From Bugulina stolonifera (taxonomy: Eukaryota > Bryozoa > Gymnolaemata > Cheilostomatida > Bugulidae): a DNA stretch of 64,000 nucleotides. The stretch spans positions 12,053,929-12,117,928 of the forward strand of contig OW285187.1 in the NCBI GenBank assembly GCA_935421135.1. Direction: 5' to 3'. Shown in pieces: positions 1 through 51,200 of this stretch; within the stretch, counting starts at the first letter, position 1; each line of letters begins with the position of its first letter. Below the pieces are notes generated by a model that was given only the letters and a program-made list of their open reading frames with translations, had not been told where the DNA came from and did no database searches. The translations under genes were made by a program, and so were the position numbers.

Positions 1-86
1 AAGACGTGATGATGGAGAAAGGGTCTCATTTCGCAGTGGAAAGGTTGTGCTGACGGTTCGTTTCAGACCGCGTGGAGAGAAATAAC

Positions 87-497
87 ATGGCCCCTCGCAT
101 AGTTCCATATTTTCCTGATGAGTCAGGTGAGATGTATGAAGACTATTATGCAAACCAGGTGGGAGAGGGAATGAGTGTGTACAGGGGAAAACCTATTATG
201 ACGGGTAATGGGATCGGCTCACTCTTTTCTGGACTGGCCCGAGGGGTCCTTCCCATGCTAAAGAATGGTGCCAAAACTATTGGGAAAAAGCTATTGACTA
301 CTGGAGCTTCGGTTCTGGGAGATGTAATCAAGGGAGAGAACTTCAAATCCTCTGCAGCAAAACGTTTTCGTGAAGCTGGTGGGGATCTTCTAGGTGATGT
401 AGAAGATGAATTACGTGAACCACCTGCCAAACGTGCACGAGTTAGTCAAAAGTCTACAAAGAAAAAGCGTAAAGGAAGAAAAACAGTTTTTGACTAA
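87..497 (+). CDS. Small basic virion-type protein beside the capsid gene
   Basis: A 136-residue protein. I start it at the ATG at 87 (context AACATGG); an in-frame GTG at 72 is less likely. It has an acidic tyrosine-rich N-terminus, a Gly/hydrophobic amphipathic stretch around residues 40-80 (GIGSLFSGLARGVLPML, then GKKLLTTGASVLGDVIKG) and a strongly basic tail (PPAKRARVSQKSTKKKRKGR) that looks like a nuclear-localisation or DNA-binding segment. Small proteins of this composition sit next to F54H12.2-like capsid genes in animal genomes and recall the basic core or membrane-active minor proteins of adenovirus-like virions. The role is inferred from position and composition. The frame is intact and lies 105 bp upstream of the capsid-type gene on the same strand. 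Confidence 0.65.
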   Translation: MAPRIVPYFPDESGEMYEDYYANQVGEGMSVYRGKPIMTGNGIGSLFSGLARGVLPMLKNGAKTIGKKLLTTGASVLGDVIKGENFKSSAAKRFREAGGDLLGDVEDELREPPAKRARVSQKSTKKKRKGRKTVFD

Positions 498-602
498 ATG
501 AAAGATAAATATATAATCCACACCTAGACTCACCACTCCCCACTCTTAGACAAGCGACTGTAGGAGCAAGTACTAGATGGAACAACTCTCACACTATCGA
601 AC

Positions 603-1949
603 ATGTCCGTCACACATCGAGCCATCTCTCTCTCCAAGGTTTCTGAAGACTCTCCAGACACGGTTGACTCCAGTTTTGACTTATTTGCCACTCCGCCAAC
701 TCATACTAGCGTGCTCAGAGGTGAGTGGGTACCTTTGGCTCCTGTTACGGACTCCCCTGATGGCACTATTGAATTTAACATCCCGCCCGCAGACGAACTC
801 TACACAGATCTATCAAGGTCTTACTTACACACCACAGTAAAGGTGAGCAAGGCGGATGGAAGCGTACTACCTGCGGAAGAACAACTAAAGGTTGTTCCAG
901 GGGACAATTTTATGCACAGTCTCTTTTCTTCTGCCACTGTTCAACTGGCTGGGCAAGATGTTGAGTATGAACCAAACTATGGACATAGAGCTTATGTCGA
1001 GAATCTCCTAAACTATGGTAAAGATGCTAAGAGCACATATATGAAAGTTGGGAGTGGGTGAATGGAGGATGAAGGAACTGGAGAAGACTATGATGGTATA
1101 CCTCCCGAAGTGGTTGAAAAAAGAAAGAAACTTATAGCCACAAGTAAAGAGATGAGCTTCTATGGGAGACCTAGGTTGAGTATGTTTTCTCAAGGAAGAC
1201 TTATTCCACCAGGAGTTCGCTCTCGCCTTACTCTACAACGTGCTATTCCACAAATGGCCCTCTTAGCAGAAACAGACAACCCTGCAGGAGGGGCGAAGAT
1301 TTCTATAACTAAGACAGAATTGTGGATTCGACGTGTACAAGCCAATCCGGCCTTACAAAAAGCACAAATGGATGTTTGGGTTGTGCAACAAGAGTCTATA
1401 AAACTACCAATTGACCGAATAAAAACTCATTTCCATGTCATCCCTGCTGGACACCAGTCAGTGAGCGTAAACTTTGATCAAGCGGGACAGAAGCCAAACA
1501 GAGTCTTTGTCGGACTAGTCAACCATACTGCAAAGAGTGGAACGTATAAGCAAAATCCCTTCAAATTTGGACATAACAATCTAAGTTCATTAGAACTACT
1601 AATTGATGGAACACCGGTGACCCGAAGATATGAACCAAATTTTGCAAGTGGAAAGTTTGCTCGTGAATTCATGAATTTGTTCACTGTCACAAATACATCC
1701 GATGCTGACACAGGGAATGAGATCTCCCCTAGCAAATACAAGTCCTGCGCTGCTCTCTACGCCTTTGACATTTCAGGAGATTTGTGTGATGACAACTTTC
1801 ACTTGTTATCAAATGGGAGTCTATCTATTAATCTAGCATTTGCTAATCAAACTCAAAATACACTTGGACTGTTTGTATACGAAGAAAAAGATGACATTAT
1901 CTACTTGAATGCAAATCACGAAGTATCTATGGTAGCCGGGATGATGTAA
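603..1949 (+). pseudogene. Capsid-type protein of the F54H12.2-like family, interrupted by one in-frame TGA
   Basis: One reading frame of 449 codons runs from the ATG at 603 to the TAA at 1947-1949, broken by a TGA at 1059-1061 (codon 153). The frame before and after is open and in register, so this is a point nonsense change, not a frameshift or splice junction: no intron signals flank it. The N-terminal half has the family's hallmark GDNFMHSLFSSATVQLAGQ stretch followed by a YGHRAYVENLLNYG block. I recognise it as the transposon-associated F54H12.2-like family, which accompanies adenain-like proteases in Polinton/adintovirus-like elements and is probably a jelly-roll capsid protein; major versus minor capsid cannot be decided here. 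The base after the TGA is A, which is not a strong read-through context. Confidence 0.7.
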
Positions 1950-1954
1950 AAAGA

Positions 1955-2482
1955 ATGGATACATTCTCAATCTCGAATATTCTATCTGATGATAAACTCT
2001 CATCAACCTCCTTTAGAGGGGTTATGCCAAGGGATCACTTCTTAGACTCCTTCTCCCCATCTGGATCTTTTGTTTTCAACACTCAAACAAGTGAGAAAAG
2101 TGGCGAGCATTGGATCTCTGTTTTTTCGAATGGAAAAGAAATAGAGTATTTCGACTCCTATGGTCTCCCCCCTTCTATTTATCCTGATGTGGGTAAGATG
2201 TTACAACAATGGGGAATACCAATAGTATGGAATGGAGAGTGTCTACAAGAAGAGAGTACTAACGTGTGTGGAGACTACTGCATCTTGTTCTGTCTCCTTC
2301 GAGCTCGAGGGTGGAGTATGGAGGGAATAATTACACGGCTAAGCAGAGTAGAAGGAAGAGTTCGAGATCATTCTATAAGAGCTCTATTACAACGTTTATA
2401 CTATAATAAAAGAAATAATACTTTCCCACTCACAACGCATGTAAACAATATTATGCTTTTTTCACCTTTTCACTTTGACTAG
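1955..2482 (+). CDS. Adenain-like (C5) cysteine protease
   Basis: A 175-residue protein starting 5 bp after the capsid stop. The adenovirus-type catalytic set is present in order: His52 (GEHWISVF), Asp67 (EYFDSYG), Gln98 (oxyanion) and Cys105 (NVCGDYC). The Gln-to-Cys spacing of seven residues is as in adenain. In adenoviruses this enzyme cleaves capsid and core precursors during virion maturation; Polintons and adintoviruses carry homologues. The length is slightly below the roughly 200 residues usual for adenain. The frame is intact, in contrast to the capsid-type gene before it. Its close packing with the two preceding genes suggests a late virion-gene block. Confidence 0.85.
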   Translation: MDTFSISNILSDDKLSSTSFRGVMPRDHFLDSFSPSGSFVFNTQTSEKSGEHWISVFSNGKEIEYFDSYGLPPSIYPDVGKMLQQWGIPIVWNGECLQEESTNVCGDYCILFCLLRARGWSMEGIITRLSRVEGRVRDHSIRALLQRLYYNKRNNTFPLTTHVNNIMLFSPFHFD

Positions 2483-2702
2483 AGAGAAATACTTCACCTT
2501 ACTTATAATTCGTTTTTATACTACTATAACTAAAAAAAAAAAAAAAAGAGACCAATAGTTTTTATCTTACCTGCATTCTTTTTTTTTCTTTGCTTTTTAG
2601 ATTTCTGCTTGATTCTTGATTCTTTTATTTTTTCTCTATTTATCTTCGTAATAAAACAATACTACTGAAGAAAGCTGCATCTTTTCTATCTTGGAATAAT
2701 AC
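2483..2702. terminator. Convergent, overlapping poly(A) signals
   Basis: Spacer between the protease stop (2482) and the stop of the opposing small ORF (2703). It holds AATAAA on + at 2650-2655 and AATAAA on - at 2624-2629, so the two predicted 3' ends overlap by tens of bases. There is also an A16-type run near 2534 and pyrimidine-rich stretches. No other coding content is seen. Confidence 0.55.
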
Positions 2703-2963
2703 TCATCCATGGGTTGTTGTGGTCTCGCCCCTATCCGAGGCCCGCTCCGGGGAGGACGGAGAGTCCACCATGTTAGAAAGATCCTTTCGGGCAGGACTCC
2801 CCACTCCTATTATTTTCCCCTTCTTCCGTGCCTCTTTTAACGCATCCACCTCTTCTTTCCTCTTCTGACTGCACTCTTCTTCCTCAATAATTCCATCCAT
2901 TTGTGAGTCCGTTAAGCCCGCAAATAACTCTTCTTGGTTTTGTACTATGTTGTCAGTATCCAT
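2703..2963 (-). CDS. Small acidic/charged protein of element 1, unknown function
   Basis: An 86-residue ORF starting at the ATG at 2963-2961. It is acidic in the first third (DSQMDGIIEEEE), then Lys-rich (KRKEEVDALKEARKKGK, possibly a short coiled coil), then Ser/Pro- and Thr-rich. I recognise no domain. It is supported by context: a TATAAAG motif lies upstream on the minus strand (3046-3053), and a minus-strand AATAAA at 2624-2629 lies 74 bp beyond the stop. It occupies the same place relative to the tandem array as the minus-strand gene of the 41541-50711 element, but I see no sequence similarity between the two. It could be the first exon of a longer gene. Confidence 0.45.
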   Translation of the reverse strand: MDTDNIVQNQEELFAGLTDSQMDGIIEEEECSQKRKEEVDALKEARKKGKIIGVGSPARKDLSNMVDSPSSPERASDRGETTTTHG

Positions 2964-3045
2964 CGATAATGTACTATTGTAGTAGTGTAGCTGTACAGTA
3001 GTGATGTGGTGAACTTTGAATGCTGAGACTGTGATCCCACTCTCC

Positions 3046-3053
3046 CTTTATAC
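3046..3053 (-). promoter_or_regulatory. TATA motif facing left from the tandem array
   Basis: Minus-strand TATAAAG about 83 bp upstream of the ATG of the small ORF at 2963, between it and the tandem array. The position fits a core promoter driven from the array. Confidence 0.5.
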
Positions 3054-3092
3054 AACTGCTCATTTCTTGACTCCTCCCTTTTTTTATCCAAT

Positions 3093-3834
3093 CCCAATGT
3101 GACCCGATGTGAATCCGAAGCCTTCCGATGTGAATCCGAAGCCTCCCGATGCATCCCGATGTGAATCCGAAGCCTTCCGATGCATCCCGATGTGATTCCG
3201 AAGCTTCCTTATGCATCCCGATGTGAAACCGAAGCTTCCCGATGCATCCCGATGTGATTCCGAAGCTTCCCGATGCATCCCGATGTGATTCCGAAGCTTC
3301 CCGATGCATCCCGATGTGATTCCGAAGCTTCCCGATGCATCCCGATGTGAATCCGAAGCTTCCCGATGCATCCCGATGTGATTCCGAAGCTTCCCGATGC
3401 ATCCCGATGTGATTCCGAAGCTTCCCGATGCATCCCGATGTGATTCCGAAGCTTCCCGATGCATCCCGATGTGATTCCGAAGCTTCCCGATGCATCCCGA
3501 TGCATCCCGATGTGAATTGACACATCGGGATGTATCGGGAAGCTTCGGAATCACATCGGGATGCATCGGGAAGCTTCGGATTCACATCGGGATGCATCGG
3601 GAAGCTTCGGATTCACATCGGGATGCATCGGGAAGCTTCGGAATCACATCGGGATGCATCGGGAAGCTTCGGATTCACATCGGGATGCATCGGGAGGCTT
3701 CGGATTCACATCGGGGTGCATCGGGAGGCTTCGGATTCACATCGGGGTGCATCGGGAGGCTTCGGATTCACATCGGGGTGCATCGGGAGGCTTCGGATTC
3801 ACATCGGGAGGCTTCGGATTCACATCGGGGTGGG
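3093..3834. repeat. Palindromic tandem array, 31-bp unit, CCCGATGTG core
   Basis: From about 3093 to 3514 a unit of about 31 bp (core CCCGATGTGATTCCGAAGCT, linked by a GATGCATC spacer) repeats about 13 times. At about 3515-3520 (AATTGA) the orientation flips, and about ten units run in reverse complement to about 3834. The block is therefore a roughly 740-bp near-perfect inverted repeat built from tandem repeats. The outermost units on both sides lack the GCATCC spacer, and units on the right end carry GGGGTGCATC variants. The period is not a multiple of three and the unit holds few stops, so long ORFs appear in several frames; these are by-products. The array lies between opposed TATA motifs (3046-3053 on -, about 3866-3875 on +), suggesting a bidirectional regulatory region or replication-related site. 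Confidence 0.9.
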
Positions 3835-4139
3835 GAAATGGTTAGACTCCGCCCACTGAATACTACTATTTAAGGTATAAGTTTCTCACTCTAGCAGTAT
3901 GAACAATCAGCCTCTAGTCAACAGAGTGAGAGTAAACAGAGACAGCTACCTACTAGTCAGTGCCTGATCAGAGATGTCAACAAGTAGAACATAAGGTTAG
4001 TGTTAAATGGAGTAATTGGCAGCAATTGTGAAGTGTTTATTGTATAAAATGCTACCAAGCTAAAAAATAACTCACACCCTACTACTATATATTTTTATAG
4101 GGAGGCTAAACAATTTAATATATTACATTATAGTCCCAC
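3835..4139 (+). other. Right-hand promoter remnant without an intact gene
   Basis: After the array comes a CTATTTAAGG TATA-like motif (about 3866-3875), then short ATG frames only: 22 codons from 3898, and a six-codon frame from about 3976 that ends just before a GGTTAGT donor-like site. In the sister element this position holds the promoter and first exon of the ankyrin gene. Here I find no ankyrin coding sequence. A gene on this side may have been deleted, or its exon may be non-coding. Confidence 0.4.
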
Positions 4140-4357
4140 CCCAGTGGAACTCGGAATGGGCGGCGGGCCGCTGCCTAGTCGCTTGGCCCGGTGGATACGG
4201 GGCACCGGCGTCGCCTCCACGTGTACGGTCGGCGCCGCACGCAACGTGGGCGGACGCGGCTTGACCGCCTCAAACGATCGGTCGTTCGGGTGAGTGGGGG
4301 TTGCGGGGGGGAGGGTGGGCGGCGGTGGAGGAGGGGTGGCGGTGATGACGGTGATGG

Positions 4358-4392
<35 letters not shown>

Positions 4393-4808
4393 GCGGTGGC
4401 GGCGGTGGCGGCGGTGGCGGTGGTGGCAGCGGTGGCGGCGGCGGTGGTGAGGGCGGTGGTGGCGGCGGCGACGGCGGCGGTGAGGGCGGCGGTGGCGGCG
4501 GCGGCGACGGCGGCGGCGCGGACGGGACGAGGGCGGTGGCGGGGAGTGGGGGAGGAGTGGGAGGTGGGGGAGGGGGAGGAGGGCGGGAAGGAGGGAGGGA
4601 AGGGGTCGTGGCCGGGTTCGGGGTCAAGTGTGCAAATGTTTTTTCGACCAATCAGAAGGGGGGATTTTGGGGTGACCTTGGCAAGGTCGTGTGCAAAATT
4701 TTTGTGCTCTTCTGTGATTGGTTGAAATCGGAAATACCGGCTTGTGATTGGTTGAAAACAGGGGTCAATGAGTGCGTGTCTGTCTAGAAGTGCACTGACT
4801 ATACTACT
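4140..4808 (+). repeat. GC-rich terminal inverted repeat of element 1 (right end)
   Basis: Shared with both ends of the 41541-50711 element. From inside out it holds a GC-rich unique block (from about 4160), a purine-rich GGC/GGT/GGA tract (about 4300-4600), and a unique outer 200 bp with one ACCAATCAG and two copies of TGTGATTGGTTGAAA (inverted CCAAT boxes), ending CTATACTACT. The inner 20 bp (4140-4159) aligns less well with the other copies. Tract length differs by GGC-type indels; the outer 200 bp looks identical by eye. Gly-, Ala- and Pro-rich ORFs here are artefacts of the tract. Confidence 0.9.
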
Positions 4809-5815
4809 CATATCTGTTAGCTACAAGACAATGTTATTCTATAAATTTAGCATGTCAGTAAAGGGCCCTATGAATGGATTACATACCACTGCTGAGCTGT
4901 ATGCTATATTTGTATGGTAGCAAAAGGTGTGAGTGTTTTACTTGCAAATAGTATAATATCCATGTGCCTGTATCCGGTTTAAAATATGGAATCGCCAACA
5001 TGTAAATTATAAAATGCAGTAGCTGGTGATAAGCAGAAGTTTTTGCAAGGCGTTTGAAACAATTAGGAGTTATATACTCATTTGTCATCTAAAACATGGA
5101 AATGTAACTCCAAATTGAATAGATCACTATATTATGTATTATTATAACAAACAAATACAGTGTATAACATCATCTCAGCTCTAGAATAAAACAGTTTGTA
5201 GCATTTCTGCACCAGTCCAAAATTGTTTGCTTTAATTGGATAATAGTTAATTCTTGTGCATGTAATTTAGAAACTTTGGGCATTGGTTGGGATTAGGAGT
5301 TGTCTTATATATAATTTAAATTAGGCTAATATACATACATGTAATCAATCATTGCTAATCTCATCTGTTTTGTCACAAAAAACAGCTCATACAATAGGAT
5401 GTAAACAAAGTAGATAAATAGGATATGTCAGTCAATGTGGCGATTTAAAATTCCCAGATGTTGATTGGTGACAGGCTGTTGACTAGCACATGAAACCAAC
5501 TAGCCACTATGTTGTGAATTATATGGGCGGGACATTGCCAATGCATACAAAGCTACATTCCCCTTTGGTCATTGAACAACAGCATAGAGTAGATTGGTTC
5601 ACTCTTTACAAGTGTATAACCTAAGCTCCTTGAGCATATTACCTAAGGCTTTTTAATTACAATATTCAATTGATCTTCTATTATTTCTTATTGAAAGCAG
5701 TAAATTACGGCAAGTCAAACTTTGTACCAAGGTAGTACAGCAAGCAGATTCACTAATAGCTGCTATTAGCAGCGCGGCAGCTGTTACAAATAGCTCAAAA
5801 CTATCTACTACTACG
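4809..5815. other. Intergenic region upstream of AHCYL
   Basis: Host DNA between the element end and the AHCYL start codon. No gene is recognised. The frame of the AHCYL first exon is open back to 5657 but has no earlier ATG, so 5657-5815 is probably 5' UTR. No clear TATA box is seen. Confidence 0.5.
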
Positions 5816-39200: not shown

Positions 39201-42200
39201 TACAAAGTTAAATCGATTTTCCTACTTCACATAATTCTGACAATCAGTAATAAAACTGTAGATTCAGCTACAAGCAAATAATTCTAAAATATTAGCCTAC
39301 AACAACCTAGTAGAAAATATTCTATAGTTGTACTTGGTGTTTAATGTGGGGATACAAATGGTTACAAAACCCAAACTACTGTACATGTATATCGTAATAT
39401 ATTGTGTTCTCTTTATGAACTGAGGAAAGGAACAGATAGTCTATTCTATGGAGAAGGGAAACACAGTCAGGTAGTTAGTACTAAAGAGAGATAAACCATG
39501 CATATGTGACTACTAGATTCCATTACCAGTTAGTACAACTATTATTATCTGTGGTCATCCCTCTGCTCCTAGCATGCATGCTTCTACAAAATGGTCATGC
39601 AGAGCAAGACTCAAGTGATGGTAACTATAGTTTCACTGGTAACCATAGTTACTCTGGTAGCTTAGTTACTACGGTAACCATAGTGATTATGGTAACTATA
39701 GTTGCTATGGTGACTATAGTTACTATGGTAACTACTGTAGTTACTCTGGTAGCTATAGTTACTACGGTAACCATAGTTATTATGGTAACTATAGTTGCTA
39801 TGGTGACTATAGTTACTATGGTAACTACTGTAGTTACTCTGGTAGCTATAGTTACTATGGTAACTATAGTTGTAGTGAGTAGCTGAACCAATAAGTGCAG
39901 GTTAGAACATGTAAAAGGTGTTTTTTCTCTTTAGTTGATTAAATCGCAGTAAATTTACATAAAGGAGTTGTTTTCTATAATTTGGTGAGACGACTTAATT
40001 TAATTCAAATTTATCAGCTGTTATATGCAACTCAAAATATGATTTCAATTGATGGTGTAATTATTGCAAAATGAGCTAATATAGCCCAAATACTAACTGT
40101 ATTTGCACCATTTAAAACCTTTCTAATCCTCAAAATAAATTTTATCACTTGCCATGTTGTGTCTAGGACATGTCAGATTTTAAGAATTATTTGCTTGAGT
40201 TATGTTGTTTGGTGTCATTATAAGTCTCTGTAGGGACAGAAACTGACGGTTTTGGGTCCGTTTCGAAAGCTTAGTACCGAGTAAATATGCTTCCAAAACA
40301 AAATATTTTAATTACATTAGAAACACCAGGTTTTCAGCTTTACAATGATGTAAACTTGTATGGTTTAAATGAATTACATGTATGTATAATTTATAAGGTC
40401 TGATGTAAAGTCTGTTGGCTAGGGTGACAACGGCAGGTGTTAGTACTTTTGGCCAGGACAATAATTGTACAATGTACATGTACAATTTCAAATTCAACAA
40501 ATGTGCAGTTCAACTACATGCAGTGCAAACGTTGCCATGTCATATATGCATGCTTTATACGCCACTAAATAGTATGTACTATTATTTAGTAACACTAGCC
40601 TGTATACAATGTTGAATTACCAAATCTAATCTATTACAAGCAAGGTATAGGCAAAACAACAAACATGCTGAGCCTGAGCAGCAATTGTACAATAATCATG
40701 TTGTGCTTTTATTAGCCCCTTGTAAGCTAGTGCTAGTTAGACACACTACAGTAGAATTTTAAATTTATATGGTCTTTGGATTTTATCTATAATCATGAAA
40801 TAAGAAACTGTTTTGGAATTATATATATATTATTCACGTCTGCATATTGTAAAATATTTTAATAACGAGACCTAAGCAACTGGTAGAAAAAGTTACTAAC
40901 TTCTGACAAGTTTGTTTGCCTGTATGTGAATGGTTATATACCACTTACCTGCTTTCAATATAGTTACTAAGGTCTCCCTTTGTGTCTACCAGCATTAGGT
41001 TGAGCTGGGAACCATCATATGTCCAGGAGGCAAACAGCATGGAACAGTTCTGGGTGTCAAATGGGAAGTACCTGTAGACACATGTACATTGTATATTAAT
41101 AGCATCAAGTCATGTCCTATACTCAGGCGTACATACAATGTATATGTATTACACAACGAGCTGACAGGCCTGTTACATTAATTAGATGCATGTAGGCATA
41201 CTAAAGACAAGACGGAGATTTTTCAAAGCCTAGCGATTGGGGAACTGGATCTGTGAAGCGGTTTATAGGTAAATCTATTGAAACTGGTTAGTTATACTAG
41301 TGCCTTAGCAGACCGAACTAACCATCTGTTTAGTTAGCATAAGAGCTTCTATTTGCTTACCTTACATTCATAGTGCAAGAACTTCGATATATGACAGTTG
41401 ATAACCATGTTACATTTCCTGTGTGGCTGACTATCACATTGGTGCTCACTGACGACGTTTTAGAAGAGGCAACATCGGCACTTAAATGAAAACACAGATG
41501 GTGCTATGCATAGTCCCTTGTCGTTGGATTTAAGCACATTAGTAGTATAGTCAGTGCACTTCTAGACAGACACGCACTCATTGACCCCTGTTTTCAACCA
41601 ATCACAAGCCGGTATTTCCGATTTCAACCAATCACAGAAGAGCACAAAAATTTTGCACACGACCTTGCCAAGGTCACCCCAAAATCCCCCCTTCTGATTG
41701 GTCGAAAAAACATTTGCACACTTGACCCCGAACCCGGCCACGACCCCTTCCCTCCCTCCTTCCCGCCCTCCTCCCCCTCCCCCACCTCCCACTCCTCCCC
41801 CACTCCCCGCCACCGCCCTCGTCCCGTCCGCGCCACCGCCGTCGCCGCCGCCGCCCTCACCGCCGCCGTCGCCGCCGCCACCACCGCCCTCACCGCCGCC
41901 GCCGCCGCCACCGCCGCCACAACCGCCGCCGCCGCCACCGCCGCCACCGCCGCCACCACCACCGCCGCCGCCGCCGCCACCGCCGCCGCCGCCATCACCG
42001 TCATCACCGCCACCCCTCCTCCGCCGCCGCCCCCCCCCCCCCCCCCCCGCAACCCCCACTCACCCGAACGACCGATCGTTTGAGGCGGTCAAGCCGCGTC
42101 CGCCCACGTTGCGTGCGGCGCCGACCGTACACGTGGAGGCGACGCCGGTGCCCCGTATCCACCGGGCCAAGCGACTAGGCAGCGGCCCGCCGCTTCTCCC

Positions 42201-45200
42201 GAGCCCTCCACTCGAAAAGCTTGTGATCTAAACGAGCGAATTCGGCTGCGCTTCGCCTACGGCTCTCATTAGCGATAAGAAGAAGTACTACGGAAGGCTT
42301 GGTTTCAGCGATAAGAAGAAGTACTACGGAAGGTTTGGTTTATGATGTGCATTGCATTGTTAATAAAGAAATGTGTAAAGTCTTGGCTATAAATATACTG
42401 ATGGGAAGAAGGGTTGTTTCTATGATATACATTGTATTGACAACAAAGAACCGTGTGCATGTGTTAAGTCAGCATATATAATACATTAAATAAACTTTTC
42501 GCAATGGTGACAATAGAATGAATAAAAGATTGTGTACACGTGTTAAAACACAATTGAAAGAATAAAAGACACATATTTAAAAGAGTATGTCATATCTGTT
42601 ATTAGCAAGGAAGTCTGTGTGCATGTGTTAAGACAGTGTATATTATACATTAGATAAACTTTTCACAATAGTAGCAATAGAATAAATAAAAGGTTGTGTG
42701 CATGTGTTAAGTCAGCATTATGTAATATATTAAATAAACTTTTCACAATAGTAGCAATAGAATAAATAAAAGATTGAGTGTATGTGTTAAGTCAGCATTA
42801 TGTAATACATTAAATACACTTTTTACAACACTAGCAATAGAATGAATAAAAAAGCTACATATGTAAAGGAGTATGTCATAGCTATTGTTAGCAAGAAAAG
42901 TCTGTGTACATGTGTTAAGGGCAGCATATATAATACATTAAATAAACTTTTCACAATAGTAGCAATAGAATAAATAAAGATTGTGTACACATGTTGAAAT
43001 ATCATTATAATATGATTTAAACACAATTGAAAGAATAAAAGACACATATGTAAAGGAGTATGTCATAGCTATTATAGCAAGAGACAGCTGTGTGCATGTG
43101 TTAAGTCAGCACATATAATACATTAAATAAACTTTTTACAATAGTAGCAATAGAATGTATAAAAGGATGTGTATAAGTGTTAGAATACCATTATATAATA
43201 ATTTAAAAAAATAATTTTAAAAAATCCTCACTGATTTGCTATCACATAAAAGTAAATGCAGAGGGAATGAGACACTAGAGAGAGAGAGTGGGAGAAAGAG
43301 AGTGGGAGAAAAAAGAAAAAAACTAAAGAAAGATGATTAGAGCTTTTCTTCACTGACTCGAAGGTAAGCTTCAGCTTGTGCTATTACCTCTCTGTGATAC
43401 CCATTCTTCTTGAGATGAAAAATGGCAGAGCGGTAATACTCAACTGCTCCAGAGAAAAAAGATGGGGGGAGTCTGCTTCGATCAACTAGTTCACTGACAG
43501 TCTCCTCTTCTATGGGGGTAATAGTGGTGGGGGTATTAAGATTGAGTTCAGACGAACAAGAAGGAGATTGCGAGCTAAGTAGCTCTCTTCCAAAAGAAAG
43601 AGAGGGTGAAGCTAAAGAAAAGGAAGAAGTGGTAGTAGTAGAAGTAGTAATAAAAGTAGGTATTGAAAGACTAGTAATTGTATTATTAGATCTTCCAAGA
43701 GAAAAAGAGGGTGAATCTAAGAAAAAGAGTGGAGCAGGTGAAGAGGTGGGAGTAGAAGTAGGTATCGAAACAGTGGTAACTGTATCATCAGATCTTTCAG
43801 AAGAATGAGAGGGTGAATGTGAAGAAAAGAGTGGGGGAAAAGAAGCAGTAGAAGGAGTGGTAGTAATGGTAGTAGTAATAGTAGTAGTTGTAAGAGAAGA
43901 AGTAGAGGTGGTAATGTCTCCATTAGTAAGAGAGTTACTGATGGAAGAAGCATCTGAATCAAAATGATGGTGAGAAGGGAGAGGAAATTGTGAAGAGCAC
44001 ACCCCAGACTTTACAGATCTTTCAGGAGAATGAGAGGGTGAATGTGAAGAAAAGAGTGGAGGAAAAGAAGTAGTAGAAGGAGTAGTAGTAATAGTAGTAG
44101 TTGTAAGAGAAGAAGTAGAGATGGTAATGTCTCCATTAGTAAGAGAGTTACTGATGGAAGAAGCATCTGAATCAAAATGATGGTGAGAAGGGAGAGGAAA
44201 TTGTGAAGAGCACACCCCAGACTTTAAAGAGAATGGAGTAGTAGACATCCCCTTAAAGAAGGGAGGGTATACTACCCCACCAACAGTTGTTGGAGTGTAT
44301 GCGGGGATGAGTATTTTGGAAGGTGGAGAGTGACCAGTGACCCTTTGCAAAAAGGATATGGTCTTTTTTAATGAATAGATATCGGTTAGAAAGCGTGTTT
44401 TGAATGAGATGTGTCGGTGACAGGGCTTTCCATCAATATGATGATTAGATGGAAAGTTGTAGTGTCTATTCATCCCCTCATCATCTACTGTTATGTGATA
44501 GCAAAAACAGATTCGGAGCAAAAAATGTTGTTGAATGTGGACACCTCGTCGGTGCCCAACATTCTTATTGCATAAAAAGCAGGGGTCGTCCGATTCAAAT
44601 GGCTTTGTTAGTGACATCTCCAGTCTTCTTTTTGTCTCATCACTAACAAAGACATAGAATCTTAGACCCCCCTTACATATCGACTTTGCTCTGAGTCCTA
44701 AAAAAGAAAGAAAATAACAAGAATAAGTGAGAGAGAACATATGACTTACTTGTAAATCAGAAAAAAAAAAAAAAAGATTCTAAATATACAAATAGATACT
44801 AGATCATTCTTACCTATCTCGAACCCATCTACTCCCCCACATTCTTCAAATAACGCAATTTCTTCTTCCCCTAGTTCTGTTTCTTTTTCATTCTATAATG
44901 TAAATAAAATGTGCAGAGACTAATTAACAAACTACATTAACATAGTTATTTGTAATATATGATTTTTGAGGAATTTGATGAAAAAACTAGCACTCTAAGT
45001 ACTAAGCAAGTCTACTAAAGCCTGTCTATTTACTCACATAAAGAGAAATACATCATTAACATAAGAAAACCAGTTGTAATTTATGTTATATTTTTTCACA
45101 TAAGAAAAGAAAAAAAAGTGTCTTATTGATAAAAATAATACATAAGAAAGAAAGTGCAATACTTATAATAAAAATATCACTAATCTTTAACATCTTAGAC

Positions 45201-48200
45201 ATGGTAAGAGACTTATAGAATTAGAGAAAATCATACTATGGCTAATTAACATCTGGTTTTAAAAAGGAAGTAGTCTCTTTTGACATTCTAGACATGGTAA
45301 GAGGCTTATAGTATAAAAAAGTACATCATCATCAGGGGGGTAACTTTCTTGAAAAAGTTGAGGCGGCCAAAATTTGACTGGCTAACATAGCGGTGTGGGG
45401 AGGGTGTGTGCGGGATGGGGGAAGGAGGGTGGGGCACCTCCCACAAGAAAATTTTTGAAAATTCACATAAAAACAGCCATTTTGATGCATATCTGAGCTA
45501 TACGTGATGGTACAAAAGTACAAAATGTTGCATAGTAATCTGCAAATAGTAAACTTCAAATTAGTATACTGCAAAATAGTGCTTCTCTGTTTGGCTTGGC
45601 CATGACGTACCATTGTAGTCCTTTACATCCTTACAAGACTTAGGCCTAAAAATGTACACACATTAATAAAACGGGAAATAGTGCAAATTTAGTTGATGGA
45701 TAGAGATGGAGAGTGGTATTCTAGGGTTCCCAAACCCTGAAGAACAGTGTTAGAAGTGGAACAAATGAGGTGGGTAGGCACACTGTGCATGCAATCTTGG
45801 GGCATTTCCTATTGTTGAATACAGAATTACACATGCAGTGATCCTATCTTACAGATGAGATTAGTATTGTCATTGTATAGCTAACAAATTGAGTGAATTA
45901 CTAAAATGAAAAAAATTGTCCCTCAGTGGGATTCGAACTCGTGTCTCTATGCATGAAGACCAAGCACTCTACCAATTACGCTATCAAATCAGCAGTGGCT
46001 TCACGCAAAAATTAGCCATTAATGTAATGATACACATAGTAGCATCATTTTCATTAGAGTATGTTTATATCATGTGGGGCATGGTAACTATGCCTTCCGA
46101 TATTAGCTTAATTTTTTCTTCTTTTAACAAAAAGTTCAGGCGGCTAGGGCCACCTGAGCCGCCTAGATAGTTACGGCCATGATCATTATGTGTAACTAAC
46201 ATGTACTTCTGAAGAAATGTCAGTAATCTCCTTTGACATCTTAGAAACCCAACACCATAGTGGATTGAAGGTGTAATGCATGTGTGAACAAATAAGATAA
46301 TAGACTAACCATTTCTGGAGATGGGATTCTTTTCCTCGAGATTCGTCTTCTGTCTTCCGAATCGTACGTAATCATATACTTCATACCTTTCTTTGATGTT
46401 TTAATTTTTCTTATATATTTCTTTCTTTGATATTTAGATGTAGAAGCCTGTAAGTATATGTAGAGTAATAAACATATACCAAAGCATGAGTCAAGTAGAT
46501 GGAACTACTAATGCAACATAGTTACTAAAGAAAGAAACACTACAGTGGTATAACCACTTATAATAAAGTTTCTAAGCTCTGGTCACACTGATTGTAGTAT
46601 AGACAGAGCAGATCTCTACACACATGCTCTCATGTTGAGAATCAAAACAGTTTAATATATAAGCTTACAACGTTTTTAAGCCCTGGACATACCAAAGGAG
46701 AATTATACCACTACTAAAATATAATTAGCCCCAATGTTAACTCAAATGAGTAAGTTCATATTAAAATACATATTAAAATAGCTAGGATGTACTAGTATAG
46801 CCAGTACAAGTGGTAATAAACTGTTTTGATACTTATTACACTACTAGTGGTATAACTACTCATATTGAAAACAAATCTCACAACATATAAAGCTTCTAAG
46901 CTCCGGTCACACAAATTGTAGTATAGACAGATCAGATCTCTACATACTTGCTCTCATGTTGAGAATCAAAACAGTTTAATACATAAGCTTACAAAGTTTC
47001 TAAGCTCTGGTCATACCAAGGGAGTATTATATCACTACTAAAATAGAATTAGTCCCAATGTTAACTCAAATGAGTAAATTCATACTAAAATACATATTAA
47101 AATAAGTTTACTCACCATATTAATTGTTGAGTGATGTTTATTCAGAGAAATTAGTAAATATCCACAGAGTTGCAAGTCTTTACTAGGTGGTGGAGTGGTA
47201 ATGATAAAAATCCTCTCTCACGCTTGCTTTTATGGAAATCTCTGTCCAATCAGAAGTGATTTGCCTTTTTTTAGTCTGATTTATTGCATCCCGATGTGAT
47301 TCGATGTAACCCGATGTAACCCGATGTAACCCGATGTAACCCGATGTAACCCGATGTAACCCGGTGTAACCCGATGTAACCCGATGTGTTTTCGACCTCC
47401 CCCGATGTGTTTTCGACCTCCCCCGATGTGATTCGATGTGTCTCGATGTGTTTTCGACCTCCCCCGATGTGATTCGATGTGTCCCGATGTGTTTTCGACC
47501 TTCCCCGATGTAACCCGATGTAACCCGATGTAACCCGATGTAACCCGATGTGTTTTTTACCTCCCCCGATGTGTTTTCGACCTCCCCCGATGTGATTCGA
47601 TGTGTCTCGATGTGTTTTTGACCTTCCCCGATGTAACCCGATGTGTTTTTGACCTCCCCCGATGTGATTCGATGTGTCCCGATGTGTTTTCGACCTCCCC
47701 CGATGTGATTCGATGTGTTTTCGACCTCCCCCGATGTGATTCGATGTGTCCCGATGTGTTTTCGACCTCCCCCGATGTGATTCGATGTGTTTTCGACCTC
47801 CCCCGATGTGATTTGATGTGTTTTCGACCTCCCCCGATGTGATTCGATGTGACCCGATGTGTTTTCGACCTCCCCCGATGTGATTCGATGTGTCCCGATG
47901 TGTTTTCGACCTCCCCCGATGTGTTTTCGACCTCCCCCGATGTGATTCGATGTGTTTTCGACCTCCCCCGATGTGTTTTCGACCTCCCCCGATGTGATTC
48001 GATGTGTTTTCGACCTCCCCCGATGTGATTCGATGTGTCCCGATGTGTTTTCGACCTCCCCCGATGTGTTTTCGACCTTTCCCGATGTGTTTCGATGTTT
48101 CCCTATGTGTTTTCGATCTTTCCCGATGTGATTCGATGCACTCTGATGTGTTTCCAATGCACTCCAATGTATATGCTGTTAACCAATCAGCTTTATTTGT

Positions 48201-51200
48201 ATCTTTTTATTCACTATATAAAGAGAGGTGGAAACAGTAGTTTAGTTAACTCTTTCTAGCTCCAGTCTGTTCTTAATAGAAATTAAAGAAGGTTAGCACA
48301 CAAATAGCATGGAAAGTGGATATGGATCAAGCGAGTATAGCAACAAGCTAATGACTCCTATAAACCAAGAGCTGATGAAGGTAACAGTGGAAAGATGTAC
48401 AGAACAAAGCAAGTATGAGAATAAAGACTTATTTGAGGGGGTGTCTGAGCTCTTTCTCCAAAAAAGCTTACCTCTAGACTGGCAGAAATGGGATCCTTTA
48501 ACCGATATTCGTAATAAGCTTAGCACACAGTTACTAGAAGAAATTCGTTCTATCTTTTGGGAGCAAGATGGAAAGGATGAAGAGTTGTAAGTTATACATA
48601 CTTCCAACTATTTTTTTTTTTTTTTTTGTTTAGTATTGTCTTTTATGATCAAAATAAAATATGATAGACAAATTTCCCATATAACTACCTCTCAACTATG
48701 TGAAAAACAAATATCATGCTAAATGATGTAGTGAGGTACTAGAAGCAGCCCGAGATAGAGATGAGAGAGCCGTTGCACTCGCGGTATTTGTTGCGAGGAG
48801 TCACAAACAACTGAATACAAAGAATGCGAATCGGCAGACGTTACTTCACCTAACTGTACAGTCTTATTGTTCGGATTCACTAATTCGCCTCATCATCACA
48901 AGGGGAGCGGATGGAGCAATAGCCGATGCTTGGGGTTAGTGTTTTATAGCACCAATGTTTGCATGCATTGCTTGTTAAAAAATAAAGTGTTGCAAAACTT
49001 GTAACAATTCGGTGCTTATCTATATTGCTAATGTTTATTTGGAAGGTGACACCCCCCTTCACATTGCTGCACGTCTGGGTAGAGCTAAGGTTATTCATGC
49101 TCTAACCACAAGTTTGACCAGAGCAGAAGTAAAGCATCCATACTTCAGAGTTCCTTACAAATCACTTCCCCAAGACAATGTACAGAGCTACAATCATGAT
49201 GGAAGGAGTGTAGTCCACCTCATTGTTGAAACAGCGCATAGCAGCAAGCATAGAGAGGCACTAAAGGTACTAAAAAAAAATACTCGGGCTGACTTAGATA
49301 TGAGGGTAAGTGAATACATTACAGTGGAATAAAAGTAGAGTAGATCGAATTGATAAGTTAGATGGGGAGTTTAATTCTATTCTCTTGTTTGATATTATAG
49401 CGAATGGGAGATGGATACGCCCCATCTCACATTGCCATAGAGAATGAAGACTACGAATGTCTACATACATGTCTAAGATTGGGAGCTGATTCTGAAGTTC
49501 GTAACTACAAAAGTGAAACCCCTCAACAACTAGCTCACCTCTACAAATCAGCAGATATGGTAAGGGACCAACAACATAAAGAAGTATAGGTTTCTTGCTT
49601 TGCCCACCTTGAGTGATATTCGTCTGAGTAAAAAACTAAAATCATCTTGTAGGTAAGACTGTGTCAAGAGTTTGGAGCTGGAGCATATCAATTAGAGTAT
49701 GCTGAGACCGAAGTCGTAAACATTATAGCTCCTACGACTTCTGATGAAGATGAGTAATAAGTACCTAAACTCCTCTTTTATTTATTCTATTGCTACTATT
49801 GTGAAAAGTTTATTTAATATATTACATAATGCTGACTTAACACATGCACACAACCTTTTATTTATTCTATTGCTACTATTGTGAAAAGTTTATCTAATGT
49901 ATAATATACACTGTCTTAACACATGCACACAGACTTTCTTGCTAATAATAGATATGACATACTCTTTTAAATATGTGTCTTTTATTCTTTCAATTGTGTT
50001 TTAACACAGGCGAAGCGCAGCCGAATTCGCTCGTTTAGATCACAAGCTTTTCGAGTGGAGGGCTCGGGAGAAGCGGCGGGCCGCTGCCTAGTCGCTTGGC
50101 CCGGTGGATACGGGGCACCGGCGTCGCCTCCACGTGTACGGTCGGCGCCGCACGCAACGTGGGCGGACGCGGCTTGACCGCCTCAAACGATCGGTCGTTC
50201 GGGTGAGTGGGGGTTGCGGGGGGGGGGGGGGGGGGGGCGGCGGAGGAGGGGTGGCGGTGATGACGGTGATGGCGGCGGCGGCGGTGGCGGCGGCGGTGGC
50301 GGCGGCGGCGGCGGTGGTGGTGGCGGCGGTGGCGGCGGTGGCGGTTGTGGCGGCGGTGGCGGCGGCGGCGGTGAGGGCGGTGGTGGCGGCGGCGACGGCG
50401 GCGGTGAGGGCGGCGGCGACGGCGGTGGCGCGGACGGGACGAGGGCGGTGGCGGGGAGTGGGGGAGGTGGGGGAGGGGGAGGAGGGCGGGAAGGAGGGAG
50501 GGAAGGGGTCGTGGCCGGGTTCGGGGTCAAGTGTGCAAATGTTTTTTCGACCAATCAGAAGGGGGGATTTTGGGGTGACCTTGGCAAGGTCGTGTGCAAA
50601 ATTTTTGTGCTCTTCTGTGATTGGTTGAAATCGGAAATACCGGCTTGTGATTGGTTGAAAACAGGGGTCAATGAGTGCGTGTCTGTCTAGAAGTGCACTG
50701 ACTATACTACTCACATTTACTGTTACTGTGCCAAGCACAAGCATGTAGCCATGTTGAACAACTGAATTATAGTAAAATAATATCATAGGAAAAAAACTTA
50801 TTTGATTGCATTAGGTAGTGATAGGTACATCATGTTTTATAGTCTGTTTAGTGTATACCAAGTTTATGCAAAAGTATAGGAATTACATGTATAATATAAC
50901 ACAGTGTTACTATGGTCATGGTGTACATGGCTAGCATTAGCGTACTTGTTGTAAAGGAGGATATCCGGTAGCCATATCGAATCGTGTGGTATGAGAATAC
51001 TTTCAATTCCACTATAGTTCTTTGGATCCCAGGCTAGGTCATTATCTACCCAAGCTTGGTTGAGCCAGCAGTTGGTCGTTATTATTTGATTCTTTTCATC
51101 CTACCAAATATTCAAGTGATCGTTTTAATTTTGAAAACAATTTATCTTATAAGAGTGATCATTCTGTATGTTATTATAACAAATATATGTAAAGTGTAAA

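Follow-up and report, generated by a model that had tools for sequence, protein, structure and literature searches.

Polinton genes probably divided among three separately integrated element types in the bryozoan Bugulina stolonifera

The type A element in the window and its two genes

The window analysed in this work is a stretch of 64,000 nucleotides from chromosome 1 (C1) of Bugulina stolonifera (contig OW285187.1, positions 12,053,929 to 12,117,928 of the forward strand), and the searches covered the genome of this species (234,951,659 bases in 27 contigs). The window contains a complete element of 9,171 base pairs (bp) at positions 41541-50711 with exact ends, referred to here as type A. 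We consider it probable that Polinton genes are divided among three separately integrated types of element (A, B, and C), of which the element in the window is the accessory part. The features of the type A element are as follows (coordinates are those of the window).

41535..41540, no strand: left target-site copy CACATT, identical to 50712-50717
41541..42258, plus strand: left terminal inverted repeat; its outermost 18 bp (41541-41558) are the tip common to types A, B, and C
42540..42773, plus strand: inner part of the inverted repeat, beyond a left-only interruption (99% to 49774-50007)
43337..44697, minus strand: orphan gene exon 4, stop included (splice model; no match in Pfam)
44814..44892, minus strand: orphan gene exon 3 (splice model)
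45332..46178, no strand: dispersed-repeat insertion in the intron of the orphan gene, about 850 bp, foreign to type A proper
46310..46447, minus strand: orphan gene exon 2 (splice model)
47116..47118, minus strand: orphan gene start codon, exon 1 (predicted from splice sites)
47290..48140, no strand: array of short-period repeats separating the two divergent genes (repeat families D1 and D4)
48309..48586, plus strand: IkB-like gene exon 1 (splice model)
48732..48934, plus strand: IkB-like gene exon 2 (splice model)
49046..49305, plus strand: IkB-like gene exon 3 (splice model; 144 genome loci by 50-mer)
49401..49559, plus strand: IkB-like gene exon 4 (splice model)
49653..49757, plus strand: IkB-like gene exon 5, stop included (splice model)
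49774..50711, minus strand: right terminal inverted repeat (inverted-repeat comparison)
50712..50717, no strand: right target-site copy CACATT, identical to 41535-41540

Polintons (Mavericks) are recognised by AG...CT ends and a 6-bp target duplication. The window element exhibits both, and the complete element with Polinton-type ends and a perfect CACATT duplication that had been read from the sequence alone (the original prediction) is confirmed. The inverted repeats of about 700-930 bp that were part of that prediction correspond to the left repeat and to a right arm of about 938 bp. When arms 41541-42258 and 50008-50711 are compared in inverted orientation, the outer 259 nucleotides are 98% identical and the inner 229 nucleotides are 100% identical, and the GC-rich stretch between these blocks differs by insertions and deletions. 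The left-only interruption (42259-42539) is 281 bp long, and a further 234 nucleotides match at 99% beyond it. The insertion at 45332-46178 is missing from the type A copies L009, L010, L016, and L025. A relative of this repeat (88.7% identical) lies within the type B element L041.

Two intact, divergent, spliced genes had also been predicted, and both were recovered with GT-AG introns. The IkB-like gene is on the plus strand and has five exons (334 amino acids), and the orphan gene is on the minus strand and has four (526 amino acids). The IkB-like protein has an ankyrin domain (Ank_2, 6.6e-13), and its best match is cact of Bugula neritina (71% identity over 87% of the protein), followed by cact of Watersipora subatra (60%); it thus has both ankyrin repeats and homology to a known IkB (cactus). 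The label IkB-like is used because of the cact match. A PDB sequence search with the protein gave designed and generic ankyrins on top. The type A version differs from the Cactus/IkB of bryozoans in its presence at 144 mobile-element loci and in its shorter N-terminus. The IkB degron has the consensus DSGxxS. The type A protein starts with ESGYGSS, which resembles this degron in sequence, and B. neritina cact has DSGFMS.

The genome was searched with B. neritina cact for the host's own IkB gene, which was not distinguishable from the element copies among the best 104 of 893 candidates that were scored (the listed matches are 68-76% identical). The locus C6:8269386 was considered as the host's own gene and rejected, as it is another type A element. 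The first 223 amino acids of the orphan protein gave 134 candidates and no homologue at E <= 0.01, the complete protein gave nothing against Pfam, and an AlphaFold model of a single orphan exon was uninformative (pLDDT 33.8).

None of 18 core proteins (polymerases, integrases, ATPases, capsids, penton, proteases, and others) matched the window element by tblastn. By itself it lacks PolB, an rve integrase, capsid, penton, ATPase, and protease in this search, in agreement with the predicted absence of replication and virion genes, and no polymerase or integrase exon was found inside it. Type A has no replication or virion genes and therefore must be moved in trans. The same search gave no matches in 10 of 10 further type A copies, nor in L025/L026. 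A tRNA scan of the window found none.

Types B and C and a complete Polinton

The right part of a type B element occupies positions 1-4808 of the window, and the whole element is located at C1:12048086-12058736. Its features in the window are listed below.

87..494, plus strand: small basic virion-type protein, 43.5% to its counterpart in the 17-kilobase (kb) Polinton
603..1946, plus strand: major capsid protein frame, 33% to the 17-kb Polinton capsid protein
1955..2479, plus strand: adenain-like protease, 38% to the 17-kb Polinton protease in alignment
2712..2963 (limits approximate), minus strand: small charged-protein gene, start, 96.4% to the type C gene
4157..4808 (inner limit approximate), minus strand: right terminal repeat of the type A repeat family, 95.5% over 662 bp
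4809..4814, no strand: right target-site copy CATATC; L022 has the identical six bases at the left end

The type B genes encode a 442-amino-acid protein, a packaging ATPase, a small Gly-rich protein, a 189-amino-acid protein, an integrase, a penton-like protein, a basic protein, a capsid protein, and an adenain-like protease. Domain matches were obtained for the integrase (rve 2e-11, Chromo 1.2e-6) and the ATPase (Pox_A32 1.4e-6). The capsid, penton, and protease are named solely by homology to the 17-kb Polinton, and the Peptidase_C5 match of the protease (0.097) is below the cut-off. The capsid frame in the window is stopped at codon 153 of 449 and is open in L021 and L028.

The type C element L035 (C1:14211142-14220827, 9,686 bp) is flanked on both sides by CACATA and has PolB and two small genes. 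Its PolB match to PF03175 (19.2 bits) is below the cut-off of 25.8, and the first piece of the polymerase has C2H2 zinc-finger matches at residues 47-70 and 405-425. Taken as a set, A, B, and C contain the Polinton genes, with integrase, ATPase, capsid, penton, and protease in B and PolB in C.

By tblastn, PolB was found in none of the four type B elements read (window/L022, L021, L023/L024, and L027/L028), and no integrase or virion protein was found in either of the two type C elements read (L035 and L037). The positive controls gave matches in B, C, and the 17-kb Polinton, which has both gene sets. A PolB concealed in the extra sequence of two long type B elements was considered and rejected, as none was at the expected place; the extra stretch of L024, judged by reading, looks like a nested transposon.

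Types A and B have a common terminal repeat (95.5% over 662 bp). Types B and C have 1.4 kb in common at 92%, comprising a repeat array and the small charged-protein gene; in the window this is the type B DNA at 2712-4112. The B copy L021 does not have the small charged-protein gene.

Queries with the B integrase, a PolB piece from C, and the B capsid led to no confirmed related viral contig. The B integrase gave transposase-type matches alone in PHROGs, and its numerous homologues came without context. PDB sequence searches with the capsid, the ATPase, and a PolB piece gave nothing useful.

A complete Polinton of 17,276 bp is located at C1:22072416-22089691 with GCAGTG at both flanks. Its tips start with AGTAGTAT, which is common to A, B, and C. 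Read in gene direction, its genes are arranged in the order ATPase, PolB, small protein, further frame, integrase, penton, basic protein, capsid, and protease, and the type B gene order is the same order minus PolB. The B proteins are 29-45% identical to their counterparts in this Polinton, and the C PolB pieces are 30-51% identical. Its capsid gave a weak match to DJR-like_dom (0.0035), below the cut-off. The gene orders and sequences fit an origin of B and C from fission of a similar Polinton, with PolB passing to C. Several further PolB classes occur in the same genome, and a distant second Polinton type (L029-L030 and L034; C1:12828897 and 34622916) has its own PolB, integrase, and ATPase-like frames.

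Common tips, copy numbers, and chimeric copies

The outer 50 bp of type A (<=3 mismatches) occur 360 times forward and 361 times in reverse genome-wide, and a reversed-pattern control occurs 0 times, which excludes chance. The outer 18 bp occur exactly at 1,371 places (678 + 693; control 0). The C-type end has the same 18 bp and is divergent beyond them (309 + 306 occurrences, control 0). Counted with 50-mers (<=3 mismatches, controls 0), type A is present at 144 loci, type B at 198, and type C at 140, the last count being possibly low, with about 308 C-type ends that include gene-less copies. Paired ends are mostly 8.4-9.6 kb apart for A, 10.0-10.9 kb for B, and 9.6-9.8 kb for C; outliers span 2.8 to 17.2 kb. 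Identical six bases flank both ends in all 19 pairs with both ends read.

A survey of C1 gave 45 pairs from 100 listed 18-mer places, after exclusion of eight single tips and one tip-to-tip pair. Listed probes typed 27 of the 45 (6 A, 13 B, and 8 C). Four further pairs were read: L019 is type A, L012 and L033 are chimeras, and L037 is an older decayed type C. No pair with two gene types was found among the 45 (14 untyped), and none of the elements read or listed tip pairs has both integrase and polymerase. Across C1-C8, no listed B integrase place (100 of 198) is within 12 kb of a listed C polymerase place (68 of 140). Spacing below 12 kb occurs once for A-B and once for A-C (82 listed A places each).

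Three copies, L011 and L012 with A/B-type ends and L033 with C-type ends, are near-palindromes with intact tips. Their sequence is a mosaic of pieces resembling C (83-94%), A (81-87%), and B (85-88%), and against 20 queries (the 18 core proteins, IkB, and orphan) they matched a 65-amino-acid PolB piece alone. The A-C joints mean that A and C DNA have been in one replicating pool, and copies with only a PolB fragment must have been moved by proteins made elsewhere. A search with the 130-bp DNA of this PolB piece, in which 40 of 357 candidates were scored, listed 41 matches, and these include 19 inverted pairs. These chimeras are akin to defective genomes that spread.

Twelve type A copies were fetched for the analysis of selection and 11 were scored. 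The IkB-like gene is intact in 9 of the 11 (L009 is without two exons and L019 is gapped), and the orphan gene in 8 (the exceptions are L010, L016, and L019). Across both genes, the window and L018 differ by 16 synonymous and 8 non-synonymous codon changes (P 2e-5 with 75% non-synonymous expected, 2e-4 with 70% expected). The B integrase exhibits 11:2 synonymous to non-synonymous changes between L022 and L021. The A genes between subfamilies and the B integrase thus exhibit signs of constraint, and the genes are mostly open.

Interpretation of the three types

The reading of a Polinton divided in three is carried by the division of the genes, the common tips, the target duplications, the similar copy numbers, the signs of constraint, and the A-C chimeras. 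The best reading is that B and C are mutually dependent and that A is an immune-modulator part, all of them moved in trans. The polymerase of C would start at the common 18-bp tip and copy A, B, and C, and the PolB and the ends suggest that replication may be protein-primed from the ends. The integrase of B would insert all three types with 6-bp duplications, and the capsid, penton, protease, and ATPase of B could package units of about 8-11 kb. The IkB-like protein of A may bind host Rel/NF-kB and damp defence. More tentatively, the set may be an integrating, multipartite virus with double-stranded DNA that belongs to the Polinton group, its replicase, virion/integrase, and immune-modulator parts having arisen when a Polinton of about 17 kb underwent fission. 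If so, the parts could each be inserted alone and be tied only by common tips and trans-acting proteins; we infer joint packaging as a multipartite virus.

Part of the original prediction, a trans-mobilised, satellite-like cargo element, is retained, namely movement in trans and a payload of host-interaction type. The element is neither a lone cargo element nor the satellite of a complete Polinton of the ordinary kind with matching ends: the elements with the same ends are themselves incomplete and complementary, as B has no polymerase and C has neither integrase nor virion genes. That a full-length element had undergone a random internal deletion was rejected, as the types are discrete and the content is uniform in the A copies read; no other copies were found to be full-length with the window copy as the deleted one.

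Several points weigh against a Polinton divided in three. The clustering of the elements is weak (P 0.044). Changes in the orphan gene are near neutral among the closest A copies (L013 3:5, L014 1:3, L015 1:2), B ORF195 changes fast (2:13), and among four B copies ORF442 is stopped in L027 and gapped in L021. Apart from the chimeras, A and C have no sequence in common beyond the tip region. The lack of unsplit copies covers part of the set (27 of 45 pairs by listed probes, 4 read, and 14 untyped), and the three-part system is known here as a pattern in genome sequence. Helper functions could come from complete Polintons in the same genome, and the role of A may be that of a satellite to the B and C pair.

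The helper possibility, under which each of the three types hitchhikes non-autonomously on complete Polintons that provide the functions missing from it, and the complementarity of the types is incidental, is unlikely. The complete 17.3-kb Polinton and the further PolB classes would provide such helpers, and its tips start with the same bases as those of the three types. However, the match of those tips extends over 8-11 bp only, compared with 18 bp among A, B, and C, and the PolB class 100% identical to that of the complete Polinton was listed at at least 2 loci, compared with 140-198 for each type. The seemingly constrained B integrase is also unexpected for an idle gene.

We likewise doubt that B and C alone are a split Polinton and that A is a dispensable satellite with a captured B terminal repeat and a host-type IkB. 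Type A has the terminal repeat of B and no other B or C sequence, and the gene-less chimeras show that possession of the right ends is enough for a sequence to spread. However, the number of A loci is comparable to those of B and C, and its genes are conserved between subfamilies. Copy number and conservation fit a useful part and a successful satellite alike, and neither decides between them.

In polydnaviruses, which are tamed by wasps, viral ankyrins (IkB-like ankyrin genes) are carried on separate DNA units. A host-tamed delivery system of this kind, maintained for host benefit, would account for the IkB-like cargo on a separate unit, but it is very improbable here, where hundreds of dispersed copies with 6-bp duplications and an open integrase fit a spreading element. 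Misassembly or chance repeats, for which the GC-rich low-complexity stretches in the ends might speak, can be dismissed given the matching six-base flanks in 19 of 19 pairs, the control counts of 0, and the sizes and content that are consistent across chromosomes.

Polintons are regarded as self-contained, and a position close to the origin of many DNA viruses of eukaryotes has been proposed for them. In virophages and transpovirons, replication and packaging are divided between partners that are unrelated viruses, whereas the partners here have tips and sequence in common. The A, B, and C set is similar to Polintons (polintoviruses, adintoviruses) in its AG...CT ends and 6-bp duplications and in its chromodomain integrase, PolB, ATPase, penton, capsid, and adenain-like protease. 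It differs in organisation: PMC4028283 describes Polintons as single units of 15-20 kb, whereas here there are three separately integrated elements of about 8.4-10.9 kb. The segmented bidnaviruses are the nearest analogue of a divided Polinton. Bidnaviruses have a Polinton-derived PolB and a genome of two segments in separate capsids (PMC4061559). The genome of Vesanto virus may be divided into as many as twelve segments, and similar terminal repeats occur on many of them (PMC8363768). Both Vesanto virus and the Bidnaviridae (Bombyx mori bidensovirus) thus resemble the present set in a Polinton-derived PolB within a divided genome, and A, B, and C also have common termini. These viruses have single-stranded DNA, a parvovirus-type capsid, and a helicase, whereas the present elements have integrated copies, an integrase, and a Polinton-type B capsid homologous to that of the 17-kb Polinton.

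No report of a segmented Polinton and none of bryozoan Polintons or Mavericks was found in the open-licence papers searched. If the division is true, a divided Polinton beside an undivided relative in one genome would allow direct study of the origin of segmented genomes, and it would show how parts that are inherited separately remain together and how a host NF-kB pathway gene is acquired by such an element. Each point can be checked in other bryozoan genomes.

Two arrangements of the elements were also observed on C1. Three elements lie in series (C-B-C) at C1:14183858-14220827, the last two separated by 559 bp. At C1:14505550-14505589, two 18-bp tips face each other 4 bp apart, as if the whole interior had been lost.

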